Assembly (NCBI GenBank): GCA_019313245.1
Contig: JAFDBP010000051.1
Coordinates: 1-36,075, forward strand
Direction: 5' to 3'
DNA length: 36,075 nucleotides
Source of the DNA: Deltaproteobacteria bacterium
Lineage (GTDB): Bacteria > Myxococcota_A > UBA9160 > SMWR01
Within the stretch, counting starts at the first letter, position 1. Each line of letters starts with the position of its first letter. A program made the translations under genes and the position numbers. Positions 13,725 to 35,862 of the stretch are shown in pieces. The notes under the pieces were generated by a model that was not told where the DNA came from, did no database searches, and worked only from the letters and a program-made list of their open reading frames with translations.

Positions 13725-14342
13725 TCAGCCGTCGCTGCGATTGCGGTAGAGGCTGCTGTCGACCGCAGCTCGCATTGCGGCCTCGTCGAGGTGGCCACCC
13801 ACGAATGCGTTGACACTGCGCGCGGTCGCGGCGGGGTCTTCGATCGTGCGCTTGTAGTTGACCTCGATCAATTCGAAGTTCGGGCGGTTCTTGCACAGCA
13901 GTCGCGTGCGCACGATGTCGTTTCGGTAGGCCTCTTTCATCGCCTCTTCCGCGGCGGTCGCGTCCTCGGTTCCGAGGCGTTCGATCATCTTGTTCTGGCT
14001 GGCCAACACTTCGTCGAGGTTGCGCCGCATGAAGATGACCCGGTAGTCGTTGTCGTCCGGAAGATCCTTGATCAGGAAGGAGATCACCTTGAGCACCTTG
14101 CCGCGCCCCTCTCGGATGTAGCTCTTGTCGCTCTCCTTCTCGAGATCCTTGACGCGCTCGTACTCGAAGTAGCCCTTCGGGTTGTCGATGTCGGCGACGC
14201 GCTCGCTGTCGGTCATGATCTGCATGCCGCCGGCGTCGAGCATCTTCATCAACATCGAGGTTCCCGAGCGCGGCAGGCCGCTGACGATGACGATGGGTTC
14301 GCCCTGGGGTCGGCGAAACGCGCGTTTGAAGAATTCGAACAT
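13725..14342 (-). CDS. Sulfotransferase-family protein
   Basis: A 205-residue protein with a 5'-phosphosulfate-binding P-loop at 22-29 (GLPRSGTS, after the strand IVIVS). The segment YRVIFMRRNLDEVLASQNKM, with a basic pair followed by xDExxAS, matches the 3'-phosphate-binding region of PAPS-dependent sulfotransferases. Family members transfer sulfate from PAPS to sugars, lipids or tyrosine. This one is short, with no membrane segment and no signal peptide, so it is probably cytoplasmic. It is the last gene of a five-gene run with AlkP-superfamily hydrolases, 20 bp after the membrane protein. The acceptor is unknown. P-loop kinases are a less likely alternative, because the SGTS loop and the MRRN segment fit sulfotransferases better. 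Confidence 0.8.
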   Translation of the reverse strand: MFEFFKRAFRRPQGEPIVIVSGLPRSGTSMLMKMLDAGGMQIMTDSERVADIDNPKGYFEYERVKDLEKESDKSYIREGRGKVLKVISFLIKDLPDDNDYRVIFMRRNLDEVLASQNKMIERLGTEDATAAEEAMKEAYRNDIVRTRLLCKNRPNFELIEVNYKRTIEDPAATARSVNAFVGGHLDEAAMRAAVDSSLYRNRSDG

Positions 14343-14361
14343 GATCGATCCGGTCGCCTCT

Positions 14362-15180
14362 CTATAGGGTTACGCCGAAGAAGTCCTTGAGCGCGACGCC
14401 CGCGACGAGCGAGAGCACCATGGCCCACATCAGGATTCCGAGTTCGCCGTCCCAGACGAAATCGATCGGGCGCGTGTGCATGTCGAGTTCCAGCGAGAGC
14501 ACGGGGGCATCGCTCGGGATCGCGGCTTCGCCGGGATAGAGCAGCGCCTCCCAGTTGCGCAGGCGCTTGACGGGAACCTTGCGGGCTTCGCCACCGACCG
14601 CCCAGCCCTTCTCGTAGACCTCGTCACCGACCCTCACCTTGAACACGTGGTCGCCGGGCTGGTCGGCCTTCACCCGCCAGAACACCTGGCCGTCGGCCGT
14701 GCGCACGGGCGGCGCGTCGAGGCTCGTGCCGGCGGGCACTTCGAGCGAGACATCCTGGGCAGAAACCGCTGCGTCCGGGTCGAGCTTCAAGTGCAGCAAC
14801 TCGACGGAACCCGGCGGCGCGGGTTGGTAGGCGTAGTGGGCGACGAGCTGAACCATCAGCGCGATCATCGGGATGATCATCACGGCCATCGGCGTGAGGT
14901 TGTGCGCGATGTAGATCACGTTCTTGCCGATGATCTTCGCGGTCGACTTCAGCACCTGGGCGATGTCGTCGCGAAACAGCCGGATCTCGAGCAGGTGCAT
15001 GCTGATCTGCCGTTTCACGCTCGCGATCGCGGCCTGGTTCGAGGTGTACTTGTAGACCTGGAGGGCCCCGATCCCGATGATCACGGGCCAGACGATCAGA
15101 TCGAAGAGCGCGATCTCGTGGCCAAACGGCGCAAACAGGAAATCGAAGATCGCACTCGCGATGTTGTTGTACGTCTGCAT
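14362..15180 (-). CDS. Three-TM membrane protein with EMC3/Oxa1-like core and large periplasmic insertion
   Basis: A 272-residue protein. TM1 spans ~21-42 (IALFDLIVWPVIIGIGALQVY). A basic, helical, probably cytosolic segment of ~50 residues follows (KYTSNQAAIASVKRQISMHLLEIRLFRDD...). TM2 spans ~96-117. A soluble, probably beta-rich domain (~118-243) comes next, then TM3 (~246-266) and a short tail. TM1, a cytosolic helical hairpin and TM2 in N-out orientation is the layout of EMC3/TMCO1/DUF106 proteins of the Oxa1/YidC superfamily. The ~125-residue periplasmic domain between TM2 and TM3 is not usual there. I do not recognise the family with certainty and infer no catalytic role. It sits between the RHH-like gene and the sulfotransferase with 20-40 bp gaps. 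Confidence 0.75.
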   Translation of the reverse strand: MQTYNNIASAIFDFLFAPFGHEIALFDLIVWPVIIGIGALQVYKYTSNQAAIASVKRQISMHLLEIRLFRDDIAQVLKSTAKIIGKNVIYIAHNLTPMAVMIIPMIALMVQLVAHYAYQPAPPGSVELLHLKLDPDAAVSAQDVSLEVPAGTSLDAPPVRTADGQVFWRVKADQPGDHVFKVRVGDEVYEKGWAVGGEARKVPVKRLRNWEALLYPGEAAIPSDAPVLSLELDMHTRPIDFVWDGELGILMWAMVLSLVAGVALKDFFGVTL

Positions 15181-15216
15181 CAGGTCGTCGTCTCGCTTAC
15201 TCGTGGCGCCGTCTCG

Positions 15217-15417
15217 TTACGAGATGTAACCGAGGCCCTTCAGCTTGTCTCGAATGTCGTCGTCCGACCCGGCGTCTTCGAAGTGGAGCATCTCCTTTTC
15301 GAGCACGTGGGTGACGAACTCTTCCGTCGTCGCATAACCCGCGACGTCGGCGACCTTGCGCAGTCGGTCGAAGAGATCCCGGTCGATCTTCACCTTGACG
15401 GTCTTGCCTCCCAGCAT
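15217..15417 (-). CDS. 66-aa RHH-like small protein ending in LKGLGYIS
   Basis: The N-terminal part (KTVKVKIDRDLFDRLRKVADVAGYATTEEFVTHVLEKEM in outline) reads as a beta strand and two helices, the ribbon-helix-helix fold of CopG/ParD-like proteins. After an acidic linker (HFEDAGSDDD) it ends in IRDKLKGLGYIS. The final L-K-x-L-G-Y-I motif is familiar from the C-termini of sulfatase- and AlkP-type enzymes and recurs in the lipoprotein at 19858-20388. A strong GAGGAGG ribosome-binding site precedes the ATG. It lies 18 bp after the AlkP gene upstream. It may be an operon regulator or, given the tail, an adaptor of the neighbouring hydrolases; both are inferences. Confidence 0.8.
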   Translation of the reverse strand: MLGGKTVKVKIDRDLFDRLRKVADVAGYATTEEFVTHVLEKEMLHFEDAGSDDDIRDKLKGLGYIS

Positions 15418-15435
15418 GGCTGGCCTCCTCGTTGC

Positions 15436-17463
15436 CTAAAAGATGGATTCGCCCGTCATGCCGGCGAGCGGTTGGATTCCGTAGTGGGAGAGCACCGTGG
15501 CCGTCACGTCCGTCAGGTCGTGGCCGCTGCTCGATAGCTTGCGGTTCGTCAGCAGCACGCCGGGCACGACGTCGGGCGACATCAGGTGGTTGCCCGACCA
15601 GCGCGACGTGTTGTCCTCGATGATCTCCTCGGTGATCTCGCCCAGCGTCGATTCGTCCGAGCAGCCGTATCCGCGGTTGTAGCCGACCACGAGGTCGGGG
15701 CCTTCGGGGGTGCGCGGCCCGGTGTAGACCTCGTCGCCGCGGAACATTTCGAGCACGACCGTCTCCCCGTTCTCGGGGTCCTTCAGCGCTTCGAGCTTGC
15801 TGGAGAGTTCCGCCATCAGCGCGTCGGCTTCGGCCTCGGAGACGATGCCCTCGGCTTCGCGGCCCGCGATGTTCAGGTACAGACCGTTGAACCCCACCCC
15901 GTAGGCGCGGGTCTTCGACCAGTCGACGTCGCCCGTGAGGATGTGACCCGACTTCTTGCCGTCCTTCAGCACCAGGTAACCGTTGTCGCGCAACCAGCCG
16001 TTCAGGTGGAGCTTGCGGGTGTAGGGCTGGAAGCCGTGATCGCTCATCACGATCAGCAACGTGCCGGCGGGCAGGCGCTCGCGGATCTTGCCCAACGCCA
16101 CGTCGACATCCCGGTAGAAGTTCTCGATGTCGTGCGCGTGCGCGGGCGCCGTCGCGGGATCGAAGGCCGGGTGGTCGGGGGCGTCCGGATATTTGGGGTC
16201 TTCGTGGCGCCAGAGCATGTGGCACTGCAGGTCGATGTCCGAGAAGTAGACGAAGGTGGTGTCGCCGGGCTCGAAGCGGTCGAGCGAGAAATCGACCATG
16301 CGCCCGGTGTCTTCCTGGACCAGCGCGACCTGCGCGACGTACTCGTCATCGTCGAACACGCCGTCCTTGAGCGCCTCTTGCTCCTCCGGCATGCCCTGGG
16401 TGTAGAAGTAGCCGACGTTCGCGAAGATCGTCTCGACGAAATCGTCGGGGCTCGCAATCGGCATGAAGGGCGAGGCGGGCGAGAGATTGACCGGCGAGGC
16501 GTAGAGCGAGAGATTCGGGCGCAGCTGCTGCGCGTAGAACCGGACCGTTCCGGTGACCGGCATCATGCCCATCGGCAGCAGATCGAAACTCACCTCGACC
16601 CAGTCCGACCACTTGCCCTGTTCGACCAATGTGCGGCTGTCGCCGACCTCGACGACCGCGCTGTCGTTGTCGGGGTCGATGTGCACCGTGACTCGCACGG
16701 TCAGGTAATCGCCGCTCGAGGGAACCTGGCCGGGCTCGAGGTGGAACTGGTCGGGCGGGCCCCGCAGGATCGACGAGGCGGTCTCGGGAATTCCGTCGAG
16801 GTCGAGGTCCTGGACCGAGACGTACTCGATGTCGCCCTTGGGGTTCTTCTTTTCGACCAGGGTGTCGGTATACAGCGTGTAGGTTCCGAATCCGCCGCGC
16901 AGGTCGACGGTGCCCATGCCGCCGAGCACCTTCGCGTCCGACGGCGGGGTCGGGAAGTTTCCGGGGATCCGGATCACTTCGACGTCGACTTCGCTTTCGA
17001 CGAGCAGATCCCACCAGGGCGTGCCGCCGCGGTTGTTGCCCGCATCGGAACCGCCGAGCGGGATCACGTAACCGAACAGGCGCAGCGCGCTCGGCGGCTC
17101 GCCGGGCGCCGGCGTCGCGGACGAGACGGGGTGGTAGTTCGCGGGGTCGCGGTGGAGGAAGTCGAAGATGCCGTGGCCGCCCGGGTTCATCCCCGTGACG
17201 AAGTTCGACCACGCCACCGGGCTCTGCGGGGGGTTCGAGGTCCCGAGTTCCTGGTAGCTGCCCTCTCGCGCCAACTTCGCGAAGTTGGGCAGCTGGCCCT
17301 CGTCCATCATGCGCGAGAGGATCACGGGGTCCACGCCGTCGACGCCCATGATGAAGATGCCGGGCCGGCTCGCGGGTTGCGCGTGCGCGAGTGCGCCGCC
17401 GAGCAGCACCGCACACGCGGCTGCAGCGGACTTCAGCGTCGCCCTGGAGAAGATCGGGCTCAC
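15436..17463 (-). CDS. Exported AlkP-superfamily hydrolase (type I phosphodiesterase/nucleotide pyrophosphatase-like)
   Basis: A 675-residue protein from a GTG that overlaps the upstream stop (GTGA). A signal peptide is clear (basic start, KSAAAACAVLLGGALAHA, cleavage near residue 28), so it should be periplasmic. The AlkP metal site is intact by motif: D42 (MGVDGVDP), candidate nucleophile S81 (PPQSPVAW), D-x-x-x-H in SDIDLQCHMLWR, D475-H476 (MSDHGF) and the late His in WSGNH. A beta-rich insertion of ~130 residues lies around 240-360. It is a paralogue of the next gene upstream, with the same insertion pattern (SDWVE..., PFMPIASP). The family includes phosphodiesterases, phosphomutases and sulfatase relatives. 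The substrate is not predictable from sequence. Confidence 0.88.
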   Translation of the reverse strand: MSPIFSRATLKSAAAACAVLLGGALAHAQPASRPGIFIMGVDGVDPVILSRMMDEGQLPNFAKLAREGSYQELGTSNPPQSPVAWSNFVTGMNPGGHGIFDFLHRDPANYHPVSSATPAPGEPPSALRLFGYVIPLGGSDAGNNRGGTPWWDLLVESEVDVEVIRIPGNFPTPPSDAKVLGGMGTVDLRGGFGTYTLYTDTLVEKKNPKGDIEYVSVQDLDLDGIPETASSILRGPPDQFHLEPGQVPSSGDYLTVRVTVHIDPDNDSAVVEVGDSRTLVEQGKWSDWVEVSFDLLPMGMMPVTGTVRFYAQQLRPNLSLYASPVNLSPASPFMPIASPDDFVETIFANVGYFYTQGMPEEQEALKDGVFDDDEYVAQVALVQEDTGRMVDFSLDRFEPGDTTFVYFSDIDLQCHMLWRHEDPKYPDAPDHPAFDPATAPAHAHDIENFYRDVDVALGKIRERLPAGTLLIVMSDHGFQPYTRKLHLNGWLRDNGYLVLKDGKKSGHILTGDVDWSKTRAYGVGFNGLYLNIAGREAEGIVSEAEADALMAELSSKLEALKDPENGETVVLEMFRGDEVYTGPRTPEGPDLVVGYNRGYGCSDESTLGEITEEIIEDNTSRWSGNHLMSPDVVPGVLLTNRKLSSSGHDLTDVTATVLSHYGIQPLAGMTGESIF

Positions 17464-19691
17464 GACCGCTCGCCCGCCACGCGCTCTTCGGGCGCAAAGA
17501 CCAGCGCGCCCGGAGCGGCGCCGCTCTGCTCGAGTGTGGTCGGATCGAGCATGCCCTTCGCAGCGCCTTCTTTGGGATCGGAGGGCAGGATCATCTGCCC
17601 CTGCATGTAGTTCGGGATCTCCTGCCCGAAGAGTTTCATCACCGTCGCGGGGATGTCGACCAGGCGCGGCGTTTCGGTGTTGATCGCGCGATCGCAGAAG
17701 AAGACGCCCGGCACGATATCGGGATCGACGCAGTGATCGCCCGACCAGCTGCGGGTGTTGTCGGTGATGGTCTCCTCGGTCACCTGCCCGACCGCGCACT
17801 CCCAGCTGTTGCGATAGCCACCCTCCCAGCCGACGAGCAGGTCGGGCGCGTCGAAGCGATAGGGCCCGTCGAAGTACTGCTGGGACATCGCGACCTTGCG
17901 CACGCAGCGCTCGCCGTCGGCCGGATCGATCATCTTCTCGAGTTTTGCCGCGAGCTCCTTGACGAGCGCGCGGTACTCGGCGCCCTCGCTGACGATCCCG
18001 CTCTTTTCGCGCCCGGCGCGGTTGATGAAGATGCCCGTCAGCCCCAGCGCGAACGCCCGGGTGCGCGTCCAGTCGACGCCGTCGAACCACTCGCCGCTGG
18101 TGGTCGCGTTTTCGTCCTTCAGATAGAGGTAGCCGTTGTCGCGCAGCCAGCTGTTGATGTTGACGCCGCGGCGGAAGTTGGTGAAGCCGTGGTCGCTGAT
18201 CACCATGAAGATCGCATTCGGATCGTCGACGAGATCCCAGACCTTCCCCACGAGCGCATCGGCGCGCTCGTAGACCTGCGGGATGGCGTCCTTCCACTGC
18301 TCGGTGTCCTTGCCCGCATTCGCCGGATGGGTCGGATCGAGATAGCGGTAGAACATGTGCTGCACGCGATCGGTGGTGTCGAAGACGGTCGTGACCAGGC
18401 CGCTCTTGGTCTGCTTGACGGCGTCGAGGAACATCCGCTCGCGCTCTTCGCAGATCGAGATCGCCTGATCGAAGAAGACCTTCTCGTCGATCACGCGGTT
18501 GTTGAGCGACCAGGTGTCTTCGGCGAGGCCGAGCGTCGCGTACTTGCCCTGCTTCTTGGCCAGGTAGATCGCGTAGACCTCGGGGTGCGAGATCGGCATC
18601 GCGGGGTTCTCGGGGTCGATGTGGATCGGCGTCATGTAGAGGTTGACGTGGGGGTCGGTCGAGATCAGGTAGAACTTCGCGATCCCGCTGACCTTGATGC
18701 CGAGCCCCGCCTTGAAGGTGAGCTCGACCCAATCCGAGTACTCGTTGAGCTTCAGCGCGAGCGACTCGCCGCCGTCGATTTCGAGCTGCGCACTCTGCCC
18801 ATCGTCTGCGATCGTGAGCGTGAACGGCAGCGTCATGCGCCCGCCGGACTTGAGCACGCTGTTGTCGGGCCCGACGATGCGCGAGCGGATGCTATTGCCC
18901 TTGCGCCGCAGCACGGTCTGCTCGCCGCCGATGAACTTGGCCGCGTCTCCCTCGCTCTCGGTGCTGAAGAACGAGAAGGTGCCCTGGCTGCCGCGCAGGT
19001 CGGGCACGCACATGCCCGAGAGCAGCAGCCCATTCTTGAAGGGCGTGGGCGGAAAGGTGATCGGGACGCGCTGGATGATCGAGAAGATGTTCTTGTCGCC
19101 GAGCAGCTTCCAGAAGTGCTGGCTCTTCTGCAGCAGCTTCATCTTGGGTTTGCCGAGCGGCACGACGTAGCGGCCGATGTTGATCACCTTCTTGGCGCCG
19201 CCGATGTCGGTCGAACTCAGGATCGGCGCGTAGGTGCAGGGATCGCGCGTGAGGAAGTCGTAGATGCAGTGGCGGCTCGCGTCGACGCCGGTTGCGAACG
19301 TCGACCACGCCACCGGAGACATCGAGGGGACGCTGGTGTCGAGCGGCCGGAAGACGCCGCGTTCCGCGAGCTTCTGGAAGTTCGGCAGGCGGCCCTCGCG
19401 CATCAGCTTCGTCGCCATCCCCGGGTCCATGCCGTCGAGCCCGAGGATCACGACCTTCTTCGCCATCGCGGTCTTGTAGGGGTTGCCGACCTTGATCAGC
19501 CGGATCGCGGCGCGAATCGGCCAGGTGAGGATGATCGCGAACGCGAGCGCAAACGTGACCAGCAGCACCAGCATCGATCCGCCCAGAGCGAAGCCCGCGC
19601 CGGGACCGATGTAGGCGTGCGCTTCACTCGCGGTCAGGGTTAGAACGAGGGACCACGTTGTGGTGGTCGACCAATGTCGCGCGAATTTCAT
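17460..19691 (-). CDS. Membrane-anchored AlkP-superfamily hydrolase, probable cytoplasmic catalytic domain
   Basis: A 743-residue protein from an ATG with AGGAG 3-4 nt upstream; the longer frame start at 19775 lacks a ribosome-binding site. A short signal-peptide-like segment (ending SEAHA, residue ~26) is followed by YIGPGAG and a strong TM at ~34-58. Then come many basic residues (R60, R64, K67, K73, K78, K79), which by the positive-inside rule put the catalytic domain in the cytoplasm. Catalytic motifs: D86 (LGLDGMDP), candidate nucleophile S125 (SMSPVAW), DTTDRVQHMFYR, D500-H501 (ISDHGF) and WSGDH. The insert with EYSDWVELTFKAG and PAMPISHP is shared with the downstream paralogue. It leads the five-gene operon. 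It is more likely a phosphodiesterase or phosphomutase than a sulfatase, as no CxPxR motif exists. Confidence 0.88.
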   Translation of the reverse strand: MKFARHWSTTTTWSLVLTLTASEAHAYIGPGAGFALGGSMLVLLVTFALAFAIILTWPIRAAIRLIKVGNPYKTAMAKKVVILGLDGMDPGMATKLMREGRLPNFQKLAERGVFRPLDTSVPSMSPVAWSTFATGVDASRHCIYDFLTRDPCTYAPILSSTDIGGAKKVINIGRYVVPLGKPKMKLLQKSQHFWKLLGDKNIFSIIQRVPITFPPTPFKNGLLLSGMCVPDLRGSQGTFSFFSTESEGDAAKFIGGEQTVLRRKGNSIRSRIVGPDNSVLKSGGRMTLPFTLTIADDGQSAQLEIDGGESLALKLNEYSDWVELTFKAGLGIKVSGIAKFYLISTDPHVNLYMTPIHIDPENPAMPISHPEVYAIYLAKKQGKYATLGLAEDTWSLNNRVIDEKVFFDQAISICEERERMFLDAVKQTKSGLVTTVFDTTDRVQHMFYRYLDPTHPANAGKDTEQWKDAIPQVYERADALVGKVWDLVDDPNAIFMVISDHGFTNFRRGVNINSWLRDNGYLYLKDENATTSGEWFDGVDWTRTRAFALGLTGIFINRAGREKSGIVSEGAEYRALVKELAAKLEKMIDPADGERCVRKVAMSQQYFDGPYRFDAPDLLVGWEGGYRNSWECAVGQVTEETITDNTRSWSGDHCVDPDIVPGVFFCDRAINTETPRLVDIPATVMKLFGQEIPNYMQGQMILPSDPKEGAAKGMLDPTTLEQSGAAPGALVFAPEERVAGERS

Positions 19692-19857: not shown

Positions 19858-20388
19858 ATGTCGTTCGGAAAGACACCCGCGACGTTTCTCACCCGACGCG
19901 CGAAAGTGCTGGGTTCACTCGCAGTTATCGCATCGATATGCGGCTGCGACACGTCGCGGCAGGAGCATCTGATCGAGGCCCGCGCCGCGATGGCGGACGC
20001 CGCCTATGACGAGGCCGTCGCCGCCGCCGAGGCCGGCTTGCGCGCCGCTGTGGCGGGATCGCATGACGCGCTCGATGACGCGACCTCGTGGGGGCTCGAA
20101 CTCGTGAAGCTCGAGGCGTACGCGCGCGCGGGCCACGGCGAAGAGGCCAAGGCCCAGCTCGCCCAGCTCGCGCAGCGCCATCCGAATCGGGTGGAGGCGA
20201 GCGAATACTTCGCCACCGCGCATCAACTCCGCGGCGCGGGAGCCGGCACCGCGGCGATCGAGGTGCTCGACATGGGGGCGATCCTGTTTCCCTACGAGCC
20301 CGTGATCGGGCGCATGATCGAGGAGTCGAGCGAGGGCGGCGACCCGGCCGAACTCGAATTGCTCAGAAGCCTCGGCTACGTCGAGTAG
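19858..20388 (+). CDS. Small TPR-like lipoprotein ending in LRSLGYVE
   Basis: A protein of 176 residues. The N-terminus has basic residues, a hydrophobic stretch LGSLAVIASI and the lipobox ICGC, so it should be a lipoprotein acylated at the last of these Cys. The rest is alpha-helical and Ala-rich, with TPR-like helical pairs (RAAMADAAYDEAVAAAEAGL; LVKLEAYARAGHGEEAKAQLAQL). It ends PAELELLRSLGYVE, carrying the L-R-x-L-G-Y-V tail also found on the 66-aa protein of the divergent operon. GGAG lies 10 nt before the ATG. Divergent placement from the AlkP operon across 166 bp suggests it works with it at the membrane, perhaps as a scaffold. The precise function is unknown. Confidence 0.8.
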   Translation: MSFGKTPATFLTRRAKVLGSLAVIASICGCDTSRQEHLIEARAAMADAAYDEAVAAAEAGLRAAVAGSHDALDDATSWGLELVKLEAYARAGHGEEAKAQLAQLAQRHPNRVEASEYFATAHQLRGAGAGTAAIEVLDMGAILFPYEPVIGRMIEESSEGGDPAELELLRSLGYVE

Positions 20389-24860: not shown

Positions 24861-25214
24861 ATGCTCGCCGAGTACACCGGCGTTTTGGTGATCCTCGTCG
24901 TCGGGGTGGTGGTCGCCTGCGCGATGCTCGGCATCCACCTGCTGCTCGGTCCGCGCCGACAATTCTCCGGCAAACACGAACCGTTCGAGTGTGGCGAGTC
25001 GCAGATCGTTAGTCCGCGCCGCCGCTACGCGGTCAAGTTTTACATGGTCGCGATCCTGTTCGTCGTCTTCGATGTCGAGGCGATCTTCTTCTATCCGTGG
25101 GGCGCGATCTTCCAGGATCTCGGCTGGTTCGGTTTCACGACCATGTTCATCTTCACCATTCCGCTCGCGATCGGATTGATCTACGAGTGGATGAAGGGCG
25201 GTCTCGAATGGTGA
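24861..25214 (+). CDS. nuoA: NADH-quinone oxidoreductase subunit A
   Basis: A 117-residue membrane subunit with three TM helices: ~5-27, ~58-80 and ~86-108. The conserved loop KHEPFECGESQ lies between TM1 and TM2, and KFYMVAILFVVFDVEAIFFYPW is the family signature. NuoA lies at the junction of the membrane arm and the Q module of complex I. GGAGG ends 9 nt before the ATG. It is the first gene of the operon and overlaps nuoE; in most bacteria nuoB would follow instead. Confidence 0.96.
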   Translation: MLAEYTGVLVILVVGVVVACAMLGIHLLLGPRRQFSGKHEPFECGESQIVSPRRRYAVKFYMVAILFVVFDVEAIFFYPWGAIFQDLGWFGFTTMFIFTIPLAIGLIYEWMKGGLEW

Positions 25215-25678
25215 TCTCCGACGAGACGCGCTCGAAGATCGAAGAGGCGATCTCGAAGTACCCACAAAAGCGCGGCGCGCTGCTTCCAGCGATACACCTC
25301 GTTCAAGCCGATTGCGGTCACGTTTCCAAAGAATGTGCGGCCGAGCTCGCCGAGATCTTCGAGATCCTGCCGATCCAGGTGATGGAGGTCGTCAGCTTCT
25401 ACAACATGTTCTTCGATTCACCGCAGGCCAAGCATCACGTCTACGTGTGTACGAACCTGCCCTGTTCGCTGCGCGGTTCGCGCAGCCTGCTGAGCCAACT
25501 GGAGTCGCATCTCGGTGTGACCGCACCCGGAGCAACAGAGGACGGCCGCATCTTCCTCGGCCACGAAGAGTGCCTGGGGGCTTGCGGGTATGCGCCCATG
25601 ATGCGTGTCGACGACGAATACCACGAGGATCTCGACGTCGAAAAAGCCAAGCAGATCCTCGATTCACTCGGGAAATAG
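25208..25678 (+). CDS. nuoE: NADH-quinone oxidoreductase subunit E
   Basis: A protein of 156 residues with a thioredoxin-like [2Fe-2S] domain. The N1a ligands are C81-x4-C86 (CTNLPC) and C122-x3-C126 (CLGAC). The N-terminal helical part has ALLPAIHLVQADCGHVS and VMEVVSFYNMF, as in other NuoE proteins. It belongs to the NADH-oxidising N module. It starts at an ATG overlapping nuoA by 7 nt, or at a GTG (25211) making a GTGA overlap. This overlap leaves no room for the usual nuoB, nuoC and nuoD. Confidence 0.96.
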   Translation: MVISDETRSKIEEAISKYPQKRGALLPAIHLVQADCGHVSKECAAELAEIFEILPIQVMEVVSFYNMFFDSPQAKHHVYVCTNLPCSLRGSRSLLSQLESHLGVTAPGATEDGRIFLGHEECLGACGYAPMMRVDDEYHEDLDVEKAKQILDSLGK

Positions 25679-25688
25679 GGGTCGCGCC

Positions 25689-26984
25689 GTGCTCGAGAGT
25701 CCCTACGTGACCCAGTATCTGACCGAGCACTTCAGCGAGGCCGACTATCCCACGCTCGAGGGCTACGAGCGCCGCGGCGGCTACCGGGCCGCGCGCAAGG
25801 CCATCACCGAGATGGCTCCCGACGAAGTGATCGAAACCGTCAAGACCGCGGGCCTGCAGGGCCGCGGCGGCGCGGGTTTCTCGGCGGGCTTGAAGTGGTC
25901 GTTCATGCCCAAGGACGACGAGCGCCCGAAGTACCTGGTCTGCAACGCCGACGAATCCGAGCCGGGATCGTTCAAGGACCGGATCCTGCTCGAGCGCGGC
26001 GCGCATCAGATGCTCGAGGGCATCCTGATCGCGGCCTGGGCGACCGGGGCGTGCGCGACCTTCATCTACATCCGGGGCGAGTACGCGTATCCCGCCGTGC
26101 AGGTGGAGCGCGCCATCGCCGAGGCCTACGCCAAGGGTTATCTCGGCGAAAACGTGATGGGCACGGGTTTTCGCCACGACGTGCAGGTGACGCGCGGCGC
26201 GGGCGCCTACATCTGCGGGGAAGAGACCGGGCTGCTCGAATCGCTCGAGGGCAAGAAGGGCCAGCCGCGCAAGAAGCCGCCGTTTCCCGCGCAGTACGGC
26301 GCCTTCGGCATGCCGACGACGGTCAACAACGTCGAGACCTTCTCGCACGTGCCGCACATCATCGGCAAGGGCGCCGACTGGTTCCGCGGCTTCGGGACCG
26401 AGAAGAGCCCCGGCACGACCATCTTCGGCGTCTCGGGCCACGTGGTCCGCCCGGGTCTCTACGAGTTGCCGCTCGGAACGCCGCTGTCGGAGATCGTCTT
26501 CGAACACGCGGGCGGAATTCCGGGCGGGCGCAAGGTGAAGGGCGTGATCCCGGGCGGCATGTCGATGCCGATCCTGCCCGCGGGCCAGCTCGACGTCCCG
26601 ATGGCGAACGAATTCCTGCGCGAACGCAAGACCATGCTCGGCACCGGCGGGGTGATGGTGATGGACGAGACCACCTGCATGGTTCGGGCCGCGAGCGTGA
26701 TCTCGTACTTCTTCCGCGACGAGTCGTGCGGTCAGTGCACCCAGTGCCGCGAGGGCACGGGGTGGATGCACAAGATCATCGAGCGAATCGAGCGCGGCGC
26801 GGGTGAAGAGGAAGACATCGACGTGCTGGGCGACGTCGCCGGCAAGATGGAGGCGAAGACGATCTGCGCGTTCGCGGATGCCGCCGCGTGGCCGATCCAG
26901 GGGCTGCTGCGCCACTTCCGCGACGATTTCGTCGAGCACGTCCGACAGCGCAAGTGCCCATTTCCGGGGAGCTTCGAACTCTGA
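25689..26984 (+). CDS. nuoF: NADH-quinone oxidoreductase subunit F
   Basis: A 431-residue flavoprotein subunit. The FMN/NADH site includes GRGGAGFSAGLKW (58-70), CNADESEPGSFKDR, and GAGAYICGEETGLLESLEG. The N3 [4Fe-4S] ligands are C347-x2-C350-x2-C353 (CGQCTQC) and C393. It accepts hydride from NADH and passes electrons to the iron-sulfur chain. The start is a GTG at 25689 with a weak AGGGG upstream. Its stop overlaps the nuoG ATG by one base (TGATG). Confidence 0.97.
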   Translation: MLESPYVTQYLTEHFSEADYPTLEGYERRGGYRAARKAITEMAPDEVIETVKTAGLQGRGGAGFSAGLKWSFMPKDDERPKYLVCNADESEPGSFKDRILLERGAHQMLEGILIAAWATGACATFIYIRGEYAYPAVQVERAIAEAYAKGYLGENVMGTGFRHDVQVTRGAGAYICGEETGLLESLEGKKGQPRKKPPFPAQYGAFGMPTTVNNVETFSHVPHIIGKGADWFRGFGTEKSPGTTIFGVSGHVVRPGLYELPLGTPLSEIVFEHAGGIPGGRKVKGVIPGGMSMPILPAGQLDVPMANEFLRERKTMLGTGGVMVMDETTCMVRAASVISYFFRDESCGQCTQCREGTGWMHKIIERIERGAGEEEDIDVLGDVAGKMEAKTICAFADAAAWPIQGLLRHFRDDFVEHVRQRKCPFPGSFEL

Positions 26985-28588
26985 TGCCGAAGATCACGAT
27001 CGACGGGAACGAGCTCGAGGTCGCCGAGGGGCGAACCATCCTGCAGGCGCTCGACGACGCGGGCCTGCTGATGAACGGCATCGACATCCCGCATTACTGT
27101 TGGCACCCGAAGCTCCCGATCGACGGCTCGTGCCGCCTGTGCCAGGTGGAGGTCGAGGGCATTCCCAAGCTCCAGATCGCCTGCGACACGCCCGTGCGCG
27201 ACGGCATGGTGGTGCACACCCAGAACGAGCGCGTGAAGCAGGCGCGCGAGGGTGTGATGGAGCTGCTGCTCGTCAATCACCCGCTCGATTGCCCGATCTG
27301 CGACCAGGCCGGCGAGTGCAAACTGCAGGACTACACCTACGACTACGGGGTGAAGGCCTCGCGCACCAAGGAGCCGCGGCGCGCGCTCAAGAAGAACGTG
27401 GATCTCGGCCCGACGATCGTCTTCGATCAGGAGCGCTGCATCCTGTGCCGCCGCTGCGTGCGTTTCTGCCGCGAGATTCCGAAGACGGGTGAACTCGCGA
27501 TCTTCAACCGCGGCGATCACTCCGTGATCGAGACCTTCCCGGGGACGCCGCTCGACAATCCCTATTCGATGAACGTCGCGGACATCTGCCCGGTGGGGGC
27601 GCTCACCACCAAGGACTTCCGCTTCAAGATCCGGGTCTGGTTCCTCGAGGAGGTTCCCGGCATCTGCACGGGTTGTTCGAATGGCTGCAACATCCACCTC
27701 GGTGTCGCGAACAACAAGGTCTACCGCTACGTGCCGCGGCGCAACGATGCGGTGAACGACACCTGGATCTGCGACGAGGGCCGCATGAGCTACCGGCGCA
27801 TCGGCGCCCCGGACCGGCTGCGCGAATGCGCGGTGCGCGACGCGTCGGGGCGGCTCGAGCCCGTCGGGCTCGACCGCGCGATCGATGCCGCGGCGAGCCG
27901 CCTGCGCCGGTTGATCGATTCGAAGGGCCCCGGCGTGATCGCGGGACTCGCGTCCGCACACGCCACCAACGAGGACCTGTTCACCTTCCGGCGCTTCCTC
28001 GCGGCTCTGGGAGCCGAAACGCACGGCGTCGCGGTCGTGTGCGGCGAGGCGGACGATCTGCTCGTCAAGCGTGAGAAGGCGCCCAACGCCGCGGGCGCGC
28101 GCGAGATCGGCTTTCGCGATGCGCGCGCGGTGGTGGATCGCATCGGCAGCGGCGGCATCGACGCCGTGATCGCGCTCGGACACGACGCACTGCAGGAAGG
28201 TCTGCTCAGCAGCGAAGAGGCGCTCGCAAATCTCGATACGGTGATCGTGCTCGATACGCACGCGTCCGAATTCCAGCGCGTCGCACACGTGATCGTTCCC
28301 GTGCGGCACGCGGCCGAAAAGCTCGGCAGCTTCGTCAATGTGGCGCGCCGGGTGCAGCGCGTGGTTCCCGCCGTCGAATCGATGGGCGAGTCGTACTCCG
28401 ACGGAGAAGTGATCGCGAAGCTCGGCGCCGCACTCGGCCTTGAGGGCTTCGACGGAAGTTACGACGCGCGGCAGGTCGCGCGCGACCTCGCCGCTGCGAA
28501 TCCGGCGTTTGCGGGAATCGATCTCGATTCGGTCGGCGACGCGGGGCGTCCGCTCGCGGATGCGGCCGCTTCGGAGGCGGAGCGCTAG
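26984..28588 (+). CDS. nuoG: NADH-quinone oxidoreductase subunit G, short form with N7 cluster site
   Basis: A protein of 534 residues, much shorter than E. coli NuoG (~900). Ligand sets are complete: N1b C39, C50, C53, C67; N5 H99-x3-C103-x2-C106-x5-C112; N4 C152, C155, C158, C202; and the optional N7 C228-x2-C231-x3-C235-x27-C263. The C-terminal molybdopterin-oxidoreductase-like domain is cut down to about 270 residues. It keeps IVLDTHASEFQRVAHVIVPVRHAAEKLGSFVNVARRVQRV but lacks most of the middle lobes. The gene is not broken: the frame is continuous and ends two bases before nuoH with a GGAGG upstream of it. Confidence 0.95.
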   Translation: MPKITIDGNELEVAEGRTILQALDDAGLLMNGIDIPHYCWHPKLPIDGSCRLCQVEVEGIPKLQIACDTPVRDGMVVHTQNERVKQAREGVMELLLVNHPLDCPICDQAGECKLQDYTYDYGVKASRTKEPRRALKKNVDLGPTIVFDQERCILCRRCVRFCREIPKTGELAIFNRGDHSVIETFPGTPLDNPYSMNVADICPVGALTTKDFRFKIRVWFLEEVPGICTGCSNGCNIHLGVANNKVYRYVPRRNDAVNDTWICDEGRMSYRRIGAPDRLRECAVRDASGRLEPVGLDRAIDAAASRLRRLIDSKGPGVIAGLASAHATNEDLFTFRRFLAALGAETHGVAVVCGEADDLLVKREKAPNAAGAREIGFRDARAVVDRIGSGGIDAVIALGHDALQEGLLSSEEALANLDTVIVLDTHASEFQRVAHVIVPVRHAAEKLGSFVNVARRVQRVVPAVESMGESYSDGEVIAKLGAALGLEGFDGSYDARQVARDLAAANPAFAGIDLDSVGDAGRPLADAAASEAER

Positions 28589-29731
28589 ATGCCGATCGAA
28601 CCCATCATCAAGATTCTCTTCATCTTCTCCGTGATGGTGATGGGGCTCGCGCCGATCATCACCTGGATCGAGCGCAAGCAGAGCGCCGTGATGCAGGACC
28701 GCATCGGCGCCAATCGCGCGGATCTCAATGGCATCACCATCCTCGGCCTGCTGCACCCGGCCGCGGACGTGATCAAGTTGATGATGAAGGAAGACATGGT
28801 GCCCGAAGGGGCGAACCGCGTGATGCACATGCTCAGCCCGCTGATCGCGGCCGTGCCCGCGATCATGGCGTTCGCGGTGATCCCGTTCGGCGGTGTCTAC
28901 GTGTTTGGCGACACCACCCTCAATCTCGTCGGCGCCGACATCGACTGGGGGCTGCTCTACATCTTCGTGCTCGGATCGATTGCGGCCTACGGCAACGTCG
29001 TGGCCGGATGGTCGAGCAACAACAACTGGTCGATGCTCGGCGGGCTGCGCGCATCGGCCCAGATGATTTCGTACGAAGTCACGATGGGCCTGACGATCGT
29101 CGGCATCTTCATGGTGTTCCAGACGTTGCGCCTGTCCGACATGGCGCTCGCGCAGGACACCTCGTTTCGGGTTCTCGGCTTCCTGGATGTCCACTTCGGC
29201 TTGAATTGGGCGTGGATCGATTGGATTCGCCTTCCGGCCTGGGGAATCATCTACCAGCCGCTCGGATTCCTGATGTTCCTGACCGCGGTCATGGCGGAGA
29301 ACAAGCGCCCGCCGTTCGATCTTCCCGAGGGCGAATCCGAGATCATCGCGGGCTACCATCTCGAGTATTCGGGCATGCGCTTCGGCCTGTTCTTCATGTC
29401 GGAGTTCATCGAGATCATCCTGATCGCGGCGCTGACCACGACGCTCTTCCTCGGCGGCTGGGCGGTGCCGTGGCTCTCGACCGAGACGATCATCAACGGC
29501 ATTTCGTCCGTGATGGGAACCGGTTTCGCGACGGGCCTCTGCATCCTGATCCACTTCGTCAGCTTCCTGCTCAAAGTCATCTTCATGATCTGGGTGCAGA
29601 TGCTGATCCGCTGGTCGTTGCCGCGCTTCCGCTACGACCAGGTGATGAGCCTTTGCTGGAAGATCCTGCTGCCGCTTTCGATCGCGAACATCTTCGTGAC
29701 GGGCGCCGTGTTGCTATGGGTGAAGGGATGA
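28589..29731 (+). CDS. nuoH: NADH-quinone oxidoreductase subunit H
   Basis: A 380-residue polytopic subunit with about eight TM helices. Signatures include TWIERKQSAVMQDRIGANRA near the N-terminus, GGLRASAQMISYEVTMGL, and AENKRPPFDLPEGESEIIAGYHLEYSGM, the conserved loop contacting the quinone chamber. In complex I it forms the quinone-entry site together with NuoB and NuoD. The latter are not encoded here. It follows nuoG immediately and is followed by nuoJ after 7 bp, with no nuoI between them. Confidence 0.97.
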   Translation: MPIEPIIKILFIFSVMVMGLAPIITWIERKQSAVMQDRIGANRADLNGITILGLLHPAADVIKLMMKEDMVPEGANRVMHMLSPLIAAVPAIMAFAVIPFGGVYVFGDTTLNLVGADIDWGLLYIFVLGSIAAYGNVVAGWSSNNNWSMLGGLRASAQMISYEVTMGLTIVGIFMVFQTLRLSDMALAQDTSFRVLGFLDVHFGLNWAWIDWIRLPAWGIIYQPLGFLMFLTAVMAENKRPPFDLPEGESEIIAGYHLEYSGMRFGLFFMSEFIEIILIAALTTTLFLGGWAVPWLSTETIINGISSVMGTGFATGLCILIHFVSFLLKVIFMIWVQMLIRWSLPRFRYDQVMSLCWKILLPLSIANIFVTGAVLLWVKG

Positions 29732-29738
29732 TCGATCC

Positions 29739-30251
29739 ATGACGGCCGAAACGATCCTCTTCTACGTATTCGCCGGCCTCGCCGTCATCTCCGCGCTGGG
29801 CATGGTGCTCAACACGCGCAACACGGTGGCCTCGGCGCTGAGCCTCGTCGTCACGATGGTCTCCCTCGGCGCGATCTACCTGCTGCTCGAGGCCTACCTC
29901 GTCGCGGCGCTGCAGATCATGGTCTACGGCGGCGCGATCGTGGTGCTCTTCCTCTTCGTCGTGATGCTGCTCAATCTCTCGACCGACGAGTTTCCGCCCG
30001 GCCGGCAGCGGCTGATCAAATCCGCCTTCGTGATCGCGGGCGTCGCCATCCTGATCCAGATCCTGATCGCAATGGGCAACGATCCGCTGTTCGCCACACC
30101 GCCCGAAGCGGTTCCCGAGGGATATGGCGGTTATCGCCAGGTGGGTATCCAGCTCTACACGGATTACGTGCTGCTCGTCGAGATGGCGTCGCTGCTGCTG
30201 CTCGCGGCGATCGTGGGCGCGTTGATTCTCGCCAAACGGAAGATCGACTGA
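29739..30251 (+). CDS. nuoJ: NADH-quinone oxidoreductase subunit J
   Basis: A 170-residue membrane protein with five TM helices. The conserved TM3 region reads LEAYLVAALQIMVYGGAIVVLFLFVVMLLN, including the helix that bends around YGGA. The C-terminal helix is EMASLLLLAAIVGALILAKRK. It is part of the proton-pumping E-channel region of complex I. An AAGGGA-type ribosome-binding site lies in the end of nuoH. The stop overlaps the nuoK ATG by one base. Confidence 0.96.
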   Translation: MTAETILFYVFAGLAVISALGMVLNTRNTVASALSLVVTMVSLGAIYLLLEAYLVAALQIMVYGGAIVVLFLFVVMLLNLSTDEFPPGRQRLIKSAFVIAGVAILIQILIAMGNDPLFATPPEAVPEGYGGYRQVGIQLYTDYVLLVEMASLLLLAAIVGALILAKRKID

Positions 30252-30571
30252 TGCTACCGATGGATCACGTCATCGCCTTGTCGGCCATTCTCTTCACGAT
30301 CGGTGTGCTCGGAGTCGCGACCCGGCGCAACCTGATCGTGATCCTGATGTCGATCGAGTTGATGCTCAACGCCGTCAACCTGGCATTCGTGGGCTTCAAT
30401 CGCATCTGGTCCCAGACGGACGGCGTGGCCGCGATCGACGGGCAGATCTTCGTGCTGATGGTCATCGCGGTGGCCGCCTCAGAAGTGGCGGTCGGACTGG
30501 GAATCCTGCTCGCGATGTTCCGCAACCGGGATTCCGTGAACGTGGAAGAGGTCAACCTCCTCAAATGGTAG
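30251..30571 (+). CDS. nuoK: NADH-quinone oxidoreductase subunit K
   Basis: A protein of 106 residues with three TM helices, the usual size. Conserved acidic residues are within the membrane helices: MSIELMLNAVNLAF (TM2) and AVAASEVAVGLGILLA (TM3). These are the Glu pair of the antiporter-like channel. The start overlaps the nuoJ stop (TGATG), and the end overlaps the nuoL start by 7 nt, so all three are probably translationally coupled. Confidence 0.96.
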   Translation: MLPMDHVIALSAILFTIGVLGVATRRNLIVILMSIELMLNAVNLAFVGFNRIWSQTDGVAAIDGQIFVLMVIAVAASEVAVGLGILLAMFRNRDSVNVEEVNLLKW

Positions 30572-32607
30572 ACGTCGGCACAGAGACCGATCTGCTGCGC
30601 TGGATCCCCCTGCTACCCCTGTTGGTCGCGGCCTATCACGGGATCTCGATCGGATTGCTGCGCCGCCCGACGGTCCCGCGCGTGGCCGCGGTCTTTTCGT
30701 GCGCCGCCGTGCTGCTCTCGTTCGTGCTCGCGTGCATCGCGTTCCGCGATCTGCTGGCGCTGCCCTCCGATTCGCGGCTGCTGATCGACAACGTCTACAC
30801 CTGGATCGGGGCGGGGATCGGCTCGCACGCCCTGAGCGCCGAACTCTCGTTCCAACTCGATCCGCTCTCCGCCGTGATGACGCTGGTCGTCACCTTCGTC
30901 GGCTCGATGATCCATATCTACTCCATCGGCTACATGGAGGACGACCACCGCGACGACAAGGGCATCCAGCGCTTCTTCTGTTACCTGAACCTCTTCACCT
31001 TCTCGATGCTGGTACTGGTGCTGGCCGACAACCTGGTGCTGATGTTCCTCGGCTGGGAAGGCGTGGGCCTCTGCTCCTATCTGTTGATCGGTTTCTGGTA
31101 CAGCGACAACTGGAACGCCTACTGCGGCAGCAAGGCGTTCATCGTCAACCGGATCGGCGACTTCGGCTTCCTGATCGGGCTCTTCCTGCTGTTCAACGCG
31201 CTCTCGGAGATCGGGCACCCCGCGGTCTCCTTCGAGGGGATCAAGGCGCACTTCGACGGCATCGTGGGGATGACGATCGCGGTGCCCGCGTGGATGCCCT
31301 TCGCTCCCGAGTGGTCACTCGTGAACGTGATCGGGCTGTGTTTCTTCCTCGGCGCCTGCGGCAAGTCGGCCCAGATCCCGCTCTACGTCTGGCTGCCCGA
31401 CGCGATGGCGGGCCCGACTCCGGTCTCGGCGCTGATCCACGCGGCCACGATGGTGACCGCGGGCGTCTACATGGTCTGCCGCCTGAGCTTCCTCTACGCG
31501 GCCGCGCCCGAGGCCTCCGCCGTGATCGCGTGGACGGGGGCGATCACCGCGCTGGTGGCGGCCACGATCGCGATCGCGCAAAACGACATCAAGAAGGTGC
31601 TCGCCTATTCGACGGTGAGCCAGCTCGGCTACATGTTCCTCGCCGCGGGCTGCGGCGGTTATGCGGCGGCGATCTTCCACCTCGGAACGCACGCCTTCTT
31701 CAAGGCGCTGCTCTTCCTCGGCGCCGGCGCCGTCATCCTCGCGATGCACCACGAGCAGGACATGCAGAAGATGGGCGGCCTCTGGCGCCGGCTGCGGCAG
31801 ACCCGCTGGGTCTTCTTCGTGGGCGTGTACGCGATCGCGGGCTTCCCGCCGTTCTCGGGCTTCTTCTCGAAGGACGAGATTCTCGTCGCCGCCTGGGCGT
31901 CCCACGTGCCCGGTCACACCTGGCTCTACGGGATCGGCATGTTTACCGCGGGTCTGACCGCGTTCTACATGTTCCGCCTCTGGTACCTCACGTTCTGCGG
32001 CGAATCTCGCGTGCCGAGTGATGTCTACAGCCACATCGAGGATCCGAACGGTTTCGTGATCAATCCGCTCTGGGTGCTCGCGTTCTTCTCCGCGTCCGCC
32101 GGAATCGTCGGCCTGCCGCAGATCTGGGGCGACCTGATCGGGATCGAAGAGTCGAACAGTCTCGCCAACTTCCTGAAGCCCGCGTTCGTCGCGAGCGAAC
32201 CGCATCACATCGCGCACAGTACGGAGTACTGGATGGCGTTCTGGGCGGTCGCGATCGCGCTGTTCGGTACCGCGGTGGCCTGGCTGATGTACGTCAAGAA
32301 GCCCGGCATCCCCGACCGGATCGCCACGGCCCTCTCCGGCCTGTATCGGGCGCTGCTCAACAAGTACTACATCGACGAGCTCTACGACGCGGTCTTCGTG
32401 CGCCCGCTCGTCGCGCTCTCGGATCGCGTGCTCTACCGCATCGTCGATGCGGGCCTGATCGACGGGATCGGGGCCAACGGAACCGCGTACGGCATCCGCG
32501 CGGTCGCCGCGAACGGCCTGAAGTACGCGCAGTCGGGTCTCGCGCAGAGTTACATCTTTTTCATGATCGTCGGTGCGGTGGCGATCGTGGGTTATCTGCT
32601 GAGGTAG
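30565..32607 (+). CDS. nuoL: NADH-quinone oxidoreductase subunit L
   Basis: A 680-residue antiporter-like subunit, somewhat longer than E. coli NuoL (613). Family segments include FLGWEGVGLCSYLLIGFWY (with the conserved Glu), GKSAQIPLYVWLPDAMAGPTPVSALIHAATMVTAGVYM (with the conserved Lys), and KKVLAYSTVSQLGYMFLAAG. The C-terminal part contains the long lateral helix region and ends in a hydrophobic TM. It forms the distal proton channel of the membrane arm. It overlaps nuoK and is followed by nuoM after 7 bp. Confidence 0.97.
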   Translation: MVDVGTETDLLRWIPLLPLLVAAYHGISIGLLRRPTVPRVAAVFSCAAVLLSFVLACIAFRDLLALPSDSRLLIDNVYTWIGAGIGSHALSAELSFQLDPLSAVMTLVVTFVGSMIHIYSIGYMEDDHRDDKGIQRFFCYLNLFTFSMLVLVLADNLVLMFLGWEGVGLCSYLLIGFWYSDNWNAYCGSKAFIVNRIGDFGFLIGLFLLFNALSEIGHPAVSFEGIKAHFDGIVGMTIAVPAWMPFAPEWSLVNVIGLCFFLGACGKSAQIPLYVWLPDAMAGPTPVSALIHAATMVTAGVYMVCRLSFLYAAAPEASAVIAWTGAITALVAATIAIAQNDIKKVLAYSTVSQLGYMFLAAGCGGYAAAIFHLGTHAFFKALLFLGAGAVILAMHHEQDMQKMGGLWRRLRQTRWVFFVGVYAIAGFPPFSGFFSKDEILVAAWASHVPGHTWLYGIGMFTAGLTAFYMFRLWYLTFCGESRVPSDVYSHIEDPNGFVINPLWVLAFFSASAGIVGLPQIWGDLIGIEESNSLANFLKPAFVASEPHHIAHSTEYWMAFWAVAIALFGTAVAWLMYVKKPGIPDRIATALSGLYRALLNKYYIDELYDAVFVRPLVALSDRVLYRIVDAGLIDGIGANGTAYGIRAVAANGLKYAQSGLAQSYIFFMIVGAVAIVGYLLR

Positions 32608-32614
32608 GGAGGGG

Positions 32615-34338
<1,724 letters not shown>

Positions 34339-34342
<4 letters not shown>

Positions 34343-35862
34343 TTCCCGCGCCGGATCTCAATCTCTCGGTCCTGCTTCCGATCGTGCTGGTGGCGATCGG
34401 ATCGATGGCGATCCTGATGGGAGAAGTGCTGCTCACTCGCGCGAACACCGTGCTCGGGCGAGAGGTCACGGAGTCGTTCATCGGGACGGTGTTGGCGGCT
34501 ACGGCGATCTTCTTCTTCGCGCTGACCCTCTGGGCTTCGGGCGAGGCGTTCAGCGCTGGCAGCGTGCAGGTCTTCAATCCCGACAACCCGATGTACCAGC
34601 TCGACCCGTTCTCGTCGCTCGTGACCGCCGTGCTGGTGCTCTCCGCGCTGCTCTCCTGCGGGCTCTCGATCGCCTACCTGTCGGAGCTTCGGATCAACCA
34701 CGGCGAGTACTACGCGCTGATCATGCTCTCCGCGTCGGGCATGATGCTGATGGTCGCCGCGGTGGACCTGATCGCGGTCTTCCTCGGGCTCGAGTTGATG
34801 AGCATCCCCATCTACGTGCTGGCGGGCTTCGACCGGAACAAGCTGCGCAGCAACGAGTCGGCGCTCAAGTATTTCCTGATCGGATCGTTCGCGAGTGCGA
34901 TCCTGCTCTACGGGATGGCGCTCTTGTACGGCGTCTCGGGCGGGACCTCCTTCGAGGCGATCCGCGCGGGCTTCGACGTCGAAAACCCGATCGCGCTGAC
35001 CGGGCTGGGCCTCGTCGTGGTGGGCTTCGCGTTCAAGATCTCGATGGTGCCCTTCCACCAGTGGACGCCGGACGTCTACGAGGGCGCGCCCTCCGCGGTC
35101 ACCGCCTACATGTCGGTGACGGTGAAAGTGGCGGCTTTCGCGACCCTGATCCGGCTGCTCGCGATGGCCTTCGGCCCGCTCGAAGCCTCGCTCGAGAGCA
35201 TCTTCTGGGCGCTGTCCGCGCTCACGATCGTGGTCGGCAACGTGATGGCGATCATCCAGGAGAACGTGAAGCGCATGCTCGCCTACTCGAGCATCGCGCA
35301 CGCGGGTTATCTGATGATCGGGCTCGTGACCGGAACGATCGAAGGCTACTCGGCGATGATCTTCTATCTGATCGCCTATACGTTCATGAATCTCGGCGCG
35401 TTCGGCGTGGTGGTCGCGCTCGCGAACCGCGGCAACGACTGCGAGCGGATCGCGTCGTTCGCGGGCCTCGCGCGCACCCGCCCGGGCCTGGCCGCGGTGA
35501 TGGCGTTGTTCATGCTCTCGTTGGCCGGCATTCCGGGCACCGCGGGTTTCCTGGGCAAGTTCAAGGTCTTCATGGCCGCGGTGAATTCGGGCGACATCTG
35601 GCTGCTGATCATCGGCGTGCTGATGAGCGTGGTGTCCGTCTACTACTACCTGCGGATCCCGGTGCTGATGTACATGCGCGAGCCCGAAGGCGAATCGCAC
35701 CGGACGGAGATCTCGAGCGGCGAGGGCGCCGTGCTGGTCATTTGCGCACTGGCGGTGCTCGCGCTCGGTCTGGTCCCGAACCGCGTGCCGACGCTGCTGT
35801 TTGGCAATCTCGACGTGCTGGACTTGGCGACCCGGTCCGTGGGAATGTTCTTCGGCGGCTGA
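34339..35862 (+). CDS. nuoN: NADH-quinone oxidoreductase subunit N
   Basis: A 507-residue antiporter-like subunit. Conserved segments are LGLELMSIPIYVLAGF (with the Glu of TM5), FKISMVPFHQWTPDVYEGAPSAVTAYMSVTVKVAAF, and KRMLAYSSIAHAGYLMIGL. The GTG start overlaps the nuoM stop as GTGA. It is the last gene of the operon seen here. Its final Gly-Gly-stop codons (GGCGGCTGA) are also the beginning of the first unit of the 44-bp hairpin array. Confidence 0.97.

Follow-up and report, generated by a model that had tools for sequence, protein, structure and literature searches.

Four kinds of described systems come closest to the locus analysed here. Proteins of the Oxa1 superfamily share a core of three transmembrane (TM) segments with a cytosolic helical hairpin between the first and the second TM (PMC8675477). 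Their elements follow one another in the order peripheral N-terminal helix, TM1, cytosolic hairpin, TM2 and TM3, with a variable segment called h4h5 (PMC8675477), and the superfamily includes archaeal YidC (MJ0480), EMC3, TMCO1, GET1 and YidC. The second are the PF01663 enzymes of the AlkP superfamily (nucleotide pyrophosphatase/phosphodiesterases and phosphonoacetate hydrolase), and the third the loci in which Sulfotransfer_3 enzymes act in the sulfation of surface glycans or small molecules. The fourth are ribbon-helix-helix (RHH) proteins such as Arc, NikR and ParD. No described system with the gene set reported below was found in the open-access literature, in agreement with an earlier sequence-only reading of this DNA, which knew of none. 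Judged by open-access text, the novelty lies in the system and not in the folds, all the proteins being members of known superfamilies.

The window (the whole stretch of DNA analysed, 36,075 nucleotides) belongs to a Myxococcota MAG of 3.9 Mb in 308 contigs. Five genes in the minus-strand order alk1-alk2-rhh-mem-st span 13725-19691, and a lipoprotein gene diverges from them:

17460-19691, minus strand: alk1, AlkP-superfamily (Phosphodiest) enzyme, 743 aa, Pfam PF01663 E=5e-30
19515-19613, minus strand: YIGPGAG motif and predicted TM of Alk1, residues 27-59; predicted outside tail uncharged, 6 K/R in the 25 residues past the TM
15436-17463, minus strand: alk2, paralogous AlkP enzyme, 675 aa, GTG start, PF01663 E=1e-30
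15217-15417, minus strand: rhh, 66-aa ribbon-helix-helix-like protein with a third helix and the tail LKGLGYIS
15220-15243, minus strand: codons of the RHH tail LKGLGYIS, L-x-x-L-G-Y being invariant in 37 aligned homologs
14362-15180, minus strand: mem, putative Oxa1-superfamily protein of archaeal/EMC3 type, 272 aa, 3 TM
14461-14817, minus strand: predicted periplasmic Ig/filamin-like domain of MEM, residues about 122-240, between TM2 and TM3 (filamin and Foldseek Ig-like matches)
13725-14342, minus strand: st, PAPS-dependent sulfotransferase, 205 aa, no TM
19858-20388, plus strand: divergent TPR-like lipoprotein, 176 aa, weak TPR match (Pfam, E=0.014)
20362-20385, plus strand: codons of the lipoprotein tail LRSLGYVE; 28 of 29 homologs end with the tail

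The five open reading frames on one strand described in the sequence-only reading were borne out, alk1 and alk2 overlapping by 4 nt (17460-17463) and the remaining genes being separated by 18 bp (alk2/rhh), 36 bp (rhh/mem) and 19 bp (mem/st). That reading had named separate promoters and terminators as what would speak against a single operon. No promoter-like site was found, terminator-like sites were fewer than the chance number, and the two scans together give no sign that the operon is split. The divergent lipoprotein gene is also real, with a likely start at 19858, which is not the longest-ORF start, and a lipobox (..ASICGC..). Elsewhere in the window (24861-35862) there is a nuo operon in which, reading the ORFs by eye, nuoA seems to be followed directly by nuoE-F-G-H-J-K-L-M-N, nuoB, C, D and I being missing between nuoA and nuoE.

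Synteny of the alk1-alk2-rhh-mem core extends over Myxococcota, Planctomycetota, Acidobacteriota, Gemmatimonadota and Verrucomicrobiota; gene order is still kept at MEM identities between phyla of 25-31%. Within the host's class mem is present in 21 of 91 genomes; its neighbours are the same wherever the contig permits, with alk2-rhh-mem-st recurring together, and in the most distant copies ST is displaced or locally missing. RHH was found in 47 of 379 genomes phylum-wide. When the RHH alignment was scanned against named genomes, 37 loci were recovered in records under the labels Myxococcota/delta, Planctomycetota, Acidobacteriota, Gemmatimonadota, Verrucomicrobia and a small number of others, and alongside RHH these loci carried MEM (34), ALK2 (33), ALK1 (31), ST (25) and the lipoprotein (17), the latter being kept beside the operon in Myxococcota. 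All six proteins show correlated pairwise distances (r 0.73-0.97, Mantel p=0.001), a correlation to which the shared ancestry of the hosts contributes. The genes do co-occur across genomes, where the sequence-only reading had named the contrary as a refutation, and we regard it as almost certain that they are functionally or genetically linked as one conserved operon. The module also appears in two records labelled Klebsiella pneumoniae and Rheinheimera (L080, L085), which are almost certainly mislabelled or contaminated MAGs.

For MEM itself Pfam gave no match. A profile built from 39 MEM sequences matched MJ0480 (5c8j) with E=1.4e-7 in two co-linear stretches (9-121 and 242-273), between which residues 122-190 gave filamin-like matches (E=0.03); the same profile matched no YidC chain at E<=10. 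In the AF2 model (pLDDT 91) helices at 2-16, 24-46, 49-68 and 73-116 are followed by a beta domain and a last helix at 245-263, and three segments are hydrophobic (22-40, 95-113 and 246-264). MEM has, in other words, a three-TM core with a predicted cytosolic helical hairpin and sequence homology to a known Oxa1 member, and the modelled elements follow the order H0, H1, H2/H3, H4, h4h5, H5 described for the superfamily. Foldseek returned Ig-like matches only and did not recover the Oxa1 fold, so that the assignment rests on the sequence profile and the predicted topology. The family PF01956 (EMC3_TMCO1) matches two of the 39 MEM homologs (best E=0.021, below the curated cut-off), and a scan of the host genome gave no match to it. 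The MJ0480 match agrees with the Oxa1/EMC3-like membrane protein seen in the sequence-only reading, and profile and model together place MEM in the Oxa1 superfamily, with the archaeal/EMC3 type. It departs from the described members in being bacterial yet not YidC-like, in having an Ig-like domain as its h4h5 and in being encoded with AlkP enzymes; to our knowledge an Ig-like domain at this position of an Oxa1-superfamily protein is new. We rejected the idea that MEM is the genome's own YidC, as the housekeeping YidC (PF02096) is a separate gene located elsewhere (C134).

Both Alk proteins match Phosphodiest PF01663 (E ~1e-30), and in profile searches the nearest structures were nucleotide pyrophosphatase/phosphodiesterases and phosphonoacetate hydrolase; profiles were needed here, as phmmer of Alk1 alone against the PDB gave no match. 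The nucleophile and the metal ligands of the superfamily are in place. Residues D86, S125, D438, H445, D500, H501 and H653 are invariant in Alk1 (23 homologs), as are D42, S81, D411, H415, D475, H476 and H626 in Alk2, and the nucleophile site reads S-P-V-A-W invariantly in both families. The formylglycine (fGly) sulfatase motif C/S-x-P-x-R is absent from the alignments of both, for which reason sulfatase activity was rejected. Judging by these residues, both Alk proteins are AlkP enzymes of the serine type with intact active sites, and not sulfatases. As to the earlier suggestion of group-transfer and group-removal enzymes working on sulfate or phosphate, sulfate removal by the AlkP proteins is unlikely, given the missing motif. 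Compared with other PF01663 enzymes they share the catalytic core, the serine nucleophile and the metal ligands, and they differ in a long, partly beta-rich insert that separates the core halves and in forming an obligate paralog pair, of which one member is predicted to be cytosolic and the other exported.

This last prediction comes from their N-termini. Alk1 begins with a signal-like sequence (..AHA/YIGPGAG..) followed by one TM. In all 22 homologs scored the stretch from YIGPGAG to the TM is uncharged, and in the next 25 residues beyond the TM there are 4-11 K/R and zero D/E, a pattern that by the positive-inside rule predicts a cytosolic catalytic domain. Most Alk1 homologs have the signal-like N-terminus, and some (L068) begin directly at MFAYIGPGAG, without signal peptide. 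Alk2 has a signal peptide, and most of its homologs have a signal peptide or a lipobox (a lipoprotein signal in many). With Alk1 cytosolic and Alk2 exported, the inner membrane is predicted to lie between the two paralogs, an inside/outside arrangement that we consider quite likely.

The PAPS-type sulfotransferase proposed earlier is well founded. ST matches Sulfotransfer_3 (PF13469, E=7e-12) and PF00685 (E=3e-7), and has both the PAPS-binding loop (VSGLPRSGTS) and a second conserved segment, FMRRxLDEVLxSQ. The module has genes for ATP sulfurylase and/or APS kinase as direct neighbours in L084, L088 and L089, and a Sat-CysC-like gene in L180, so that PAPS-synthesis genes at four loci support the link to PAPS. 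The presence of an APS kinase somewhere in the genome was dropped as support; 86 of the 91 genomes of the class have one, that of the window included, and only adjacency counts as evidence. In six of eight genomes seemingly devoid of ST, a strong ortholog (E<=1e-83) was found elsewhere, and on reading L178, L179 and L180 the gene turned out to be beside or near Alk1. Two genomes that carry the core (G379 and G385) had no clear ST ortholog in our search, and sulfation may therefore be an accessory function. We still consider it likely that sulfation is part of what the module does. ST resembles the enzymes of described Sulfotransfer_3 loci in its PAPS loop, its fold family and the surface-glycan-like genes near some copies (nucleotide-sugar, glycosyltransferase and lipid-carrier-like genes, identified by eye), whereas the core partners of the module are AlkP, Oxa1-like and RHH proteins, with neither glycosyltransferase nor polymerase. 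Those genes, found near some copies only, suggest an envelope molecule or surface glycan as the target.

RHH and the lipoprotein end in a common tail, L-x-x-L-G-Y-[ILV]. In RHH it takes the form L-[KR]-G-L-G-Y-I, (near-)invariant across phyla, and in the lipoprotein L-[RK]-[SA]-L-G-Y-[VIL]. Over the loci studied the tail is present in 56 of 57 RHH and 28 of 29 lipoproteins (the exception is cut by a contig end), in none of 47 Alk1 or 52 Alk2 proteins, and in two of 458 other genes, both of them sulfatases. A pattern search of the window's genome found only four ORFs ending in LGY[IV]x, two of them from the sulfatase family and the others RHH and the lipoprotein. Among 42 LGY-ending ORFs sampled from five other genomes, about 30 belong to the AlkP superfamily, often with the tail after a linker; several of the others were spurious or unrelated, so the pattern alone is not fully specific. 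A PF01663 AlkP of Anaerolineales carries the tail LRGLGYIT in cis (L091:2671-4365), and in a Terriglobia MAG that lacks both MEM and Alk1 an RHH-LGY gene lies directly downstream of a sulfatase-like gene (L090:7055-8174). We infer from this distribution that the tail is plausibly a partner element of AlkP enzymes which the module supplies in trans, a proposal we hold at rather less than even confidence. A single common receptor for the tail is not obvious, given that RHH is predicted to be cytosolic and that the lipoprotein, like most of the tailed sulfatases, looks exported.

Further LGY-tailed proteins were encountered. Second RHH paralogs ending in LGYL lie upstream of alk1 in two loci (L047:5490-5756 and L088:1381-1605), the latter beside ATP sulfurylase and APS kinase. 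Single-TM proteins of 59-61 aa ending in LRKLGYVD or MQDLGYVD (L131:26-205, L141:26-211) form another class, each divergent from a gene for a ca. 990-aa M16 peptidase-like protein, and a 913-aa glycosyltransferase-TPR-sulfotransferase fusion ends in LRELGYLG (L148:504-3242).

Several other explanations have to be weighed against a dedicated system. The genes could be unrelated and neighbours by accident, for which nothing speaks beyond the diversity of the families; a gene order conserved in five phyla at such low MEM identity, together with the co-divergence of the proteins, led us to reject this, and we assign it practically no probability. They could also form an operon for scavenging phosphate or degrading sulfate esters, with the Alk proteins freeing phosphate or sulfate from environmental esters. 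Membership in the AlkP superfamily, the export of Alk2 and a genome rich in sulfatases would fit, but the fGly motif is missing, Alk1 is predicted to be cytosolic, and the stable association with a sulfotransferase that consumes PAPS (and, in certain phyla, with PAPS synthesis) points to making and not breaking sulfate esters, so that we consider this quite improbable.

The other two alternatives concern single components. RHH might be an ordinary DNA-binding autorepressor of the operon, its tail having nothing to do with AlkP binding. Pfam gave no match for the 66-aa protein itself, but its homologs have weak RHH_1 and RHH_4 matches, its profile finds no more than weak NikR matches in the PDB, and the AF2 model (pLDDT 91.7) has the beta-alpha-alpha arrangement of the fold, with helices at 13-26 and 31-46 after a strand region, plus a third helix; Foldseek places Arc, NikR and ParD as best matches (all E>0.5). 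Family profiles and models thus back the RHH-like protein of the sequence-only reading, and a nearly invariant Lys in the presumed DNA-facing strand would suit a repressor. However, only one of the presumed DNA-facing positions of the strand is well conserved, no conserved operator or palindrome was seen upstream of alk1 in 16 relatives (where alignment across genera is poor), the tail common to AlkP enzymes is among the most conserved parts of the protein, and the L090 gene adjoins another AlkP-type gene where MEM is missing. We therefore think a plain autorepressor rather unlikely. RHH differs from Arc, NikR and ParD in its extra helix, in the invariant C-terminal LGYIS and in that its gene has AlkP-type genes next to it in every locus seen. 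MEM, for its part, could be a dedicated membrane insertase or chaperone for Alk1 that stands outside the chemistry. An N-out TM with a short uncharged outside tail is a typical Oxa1/EMC substrate, and this is the topology predicted for Alk1; the Oxa1 homology of MEM, the Alk1 homologs that start at MFAYIGPGAG and the separate housekeeping YidC retained in the genome point the same way. Yet the signal-like N-terminus of most Alk1 homologs is something that Sec could handle, and the conserved periplasmic Ig-like domain is left unexplained, which makes this account, too, rather doubtful.

The reading that we prefer, tentatively and short of an even chance, is that of one inner-membrane machine handling phospho- and sulfo-groups of an envelope glycan or lipid. 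The operon, its synteny in several phyla, the co-divergence, the protein families, the intact active sites and the spread of the tail are computational results, topology and the architecture of MEM are sequence-based predictions, and the complex, its substrate, the direction of the reaction and the role of the tail are inferred. The cytosolic ST would sulfate an acceptor with PAPS as donor, and Alk1, anchored by its one TM with the catalytic domain inside, would hydrolyse or transfer a phosphodiester or phosphate on the same or a linked molecule, with the exported Alk2 carrying out a matching step at the periplasmic face. MEM, with its predicted cytosolic hairpin and periplasmic Ig-like domain, might bridge both sides, be it as scaffold or as dedicated insertase. 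On the inside RHH, and on the outside the TPR lipoprotein, would be partner subunits giving in trans the LGY tail that is present in cis on other AlkP enzymes. A still bolder version, which we consider less likely than not, would see here an undescribed multi-phylum transmembrane enzyme system, with two-faced AlkP paralogs, a bridge made by a new Oxa1 family of bacteria with its Ig-like domain, and control by a portable docking tail provided in trans, the one found in cis on other AlkP and sulfatase enzymes.

If this is true, the Oxa1 superfamily would have a non-YidC branch in bacteria whose place is an operon of enzymes and not the biogenesis of proteins, and the locus would provide the first testable setting for a cytosolic, membrane-anchored AlkP family. 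Some of these genomes are rich in AlkP and sulfatase enzymes, for which the LGY tail may then act as a general code for partners. It would also predict an undescribed sulfated or phosphorylated component in the envelope of uncultured bacteria of several phyla.
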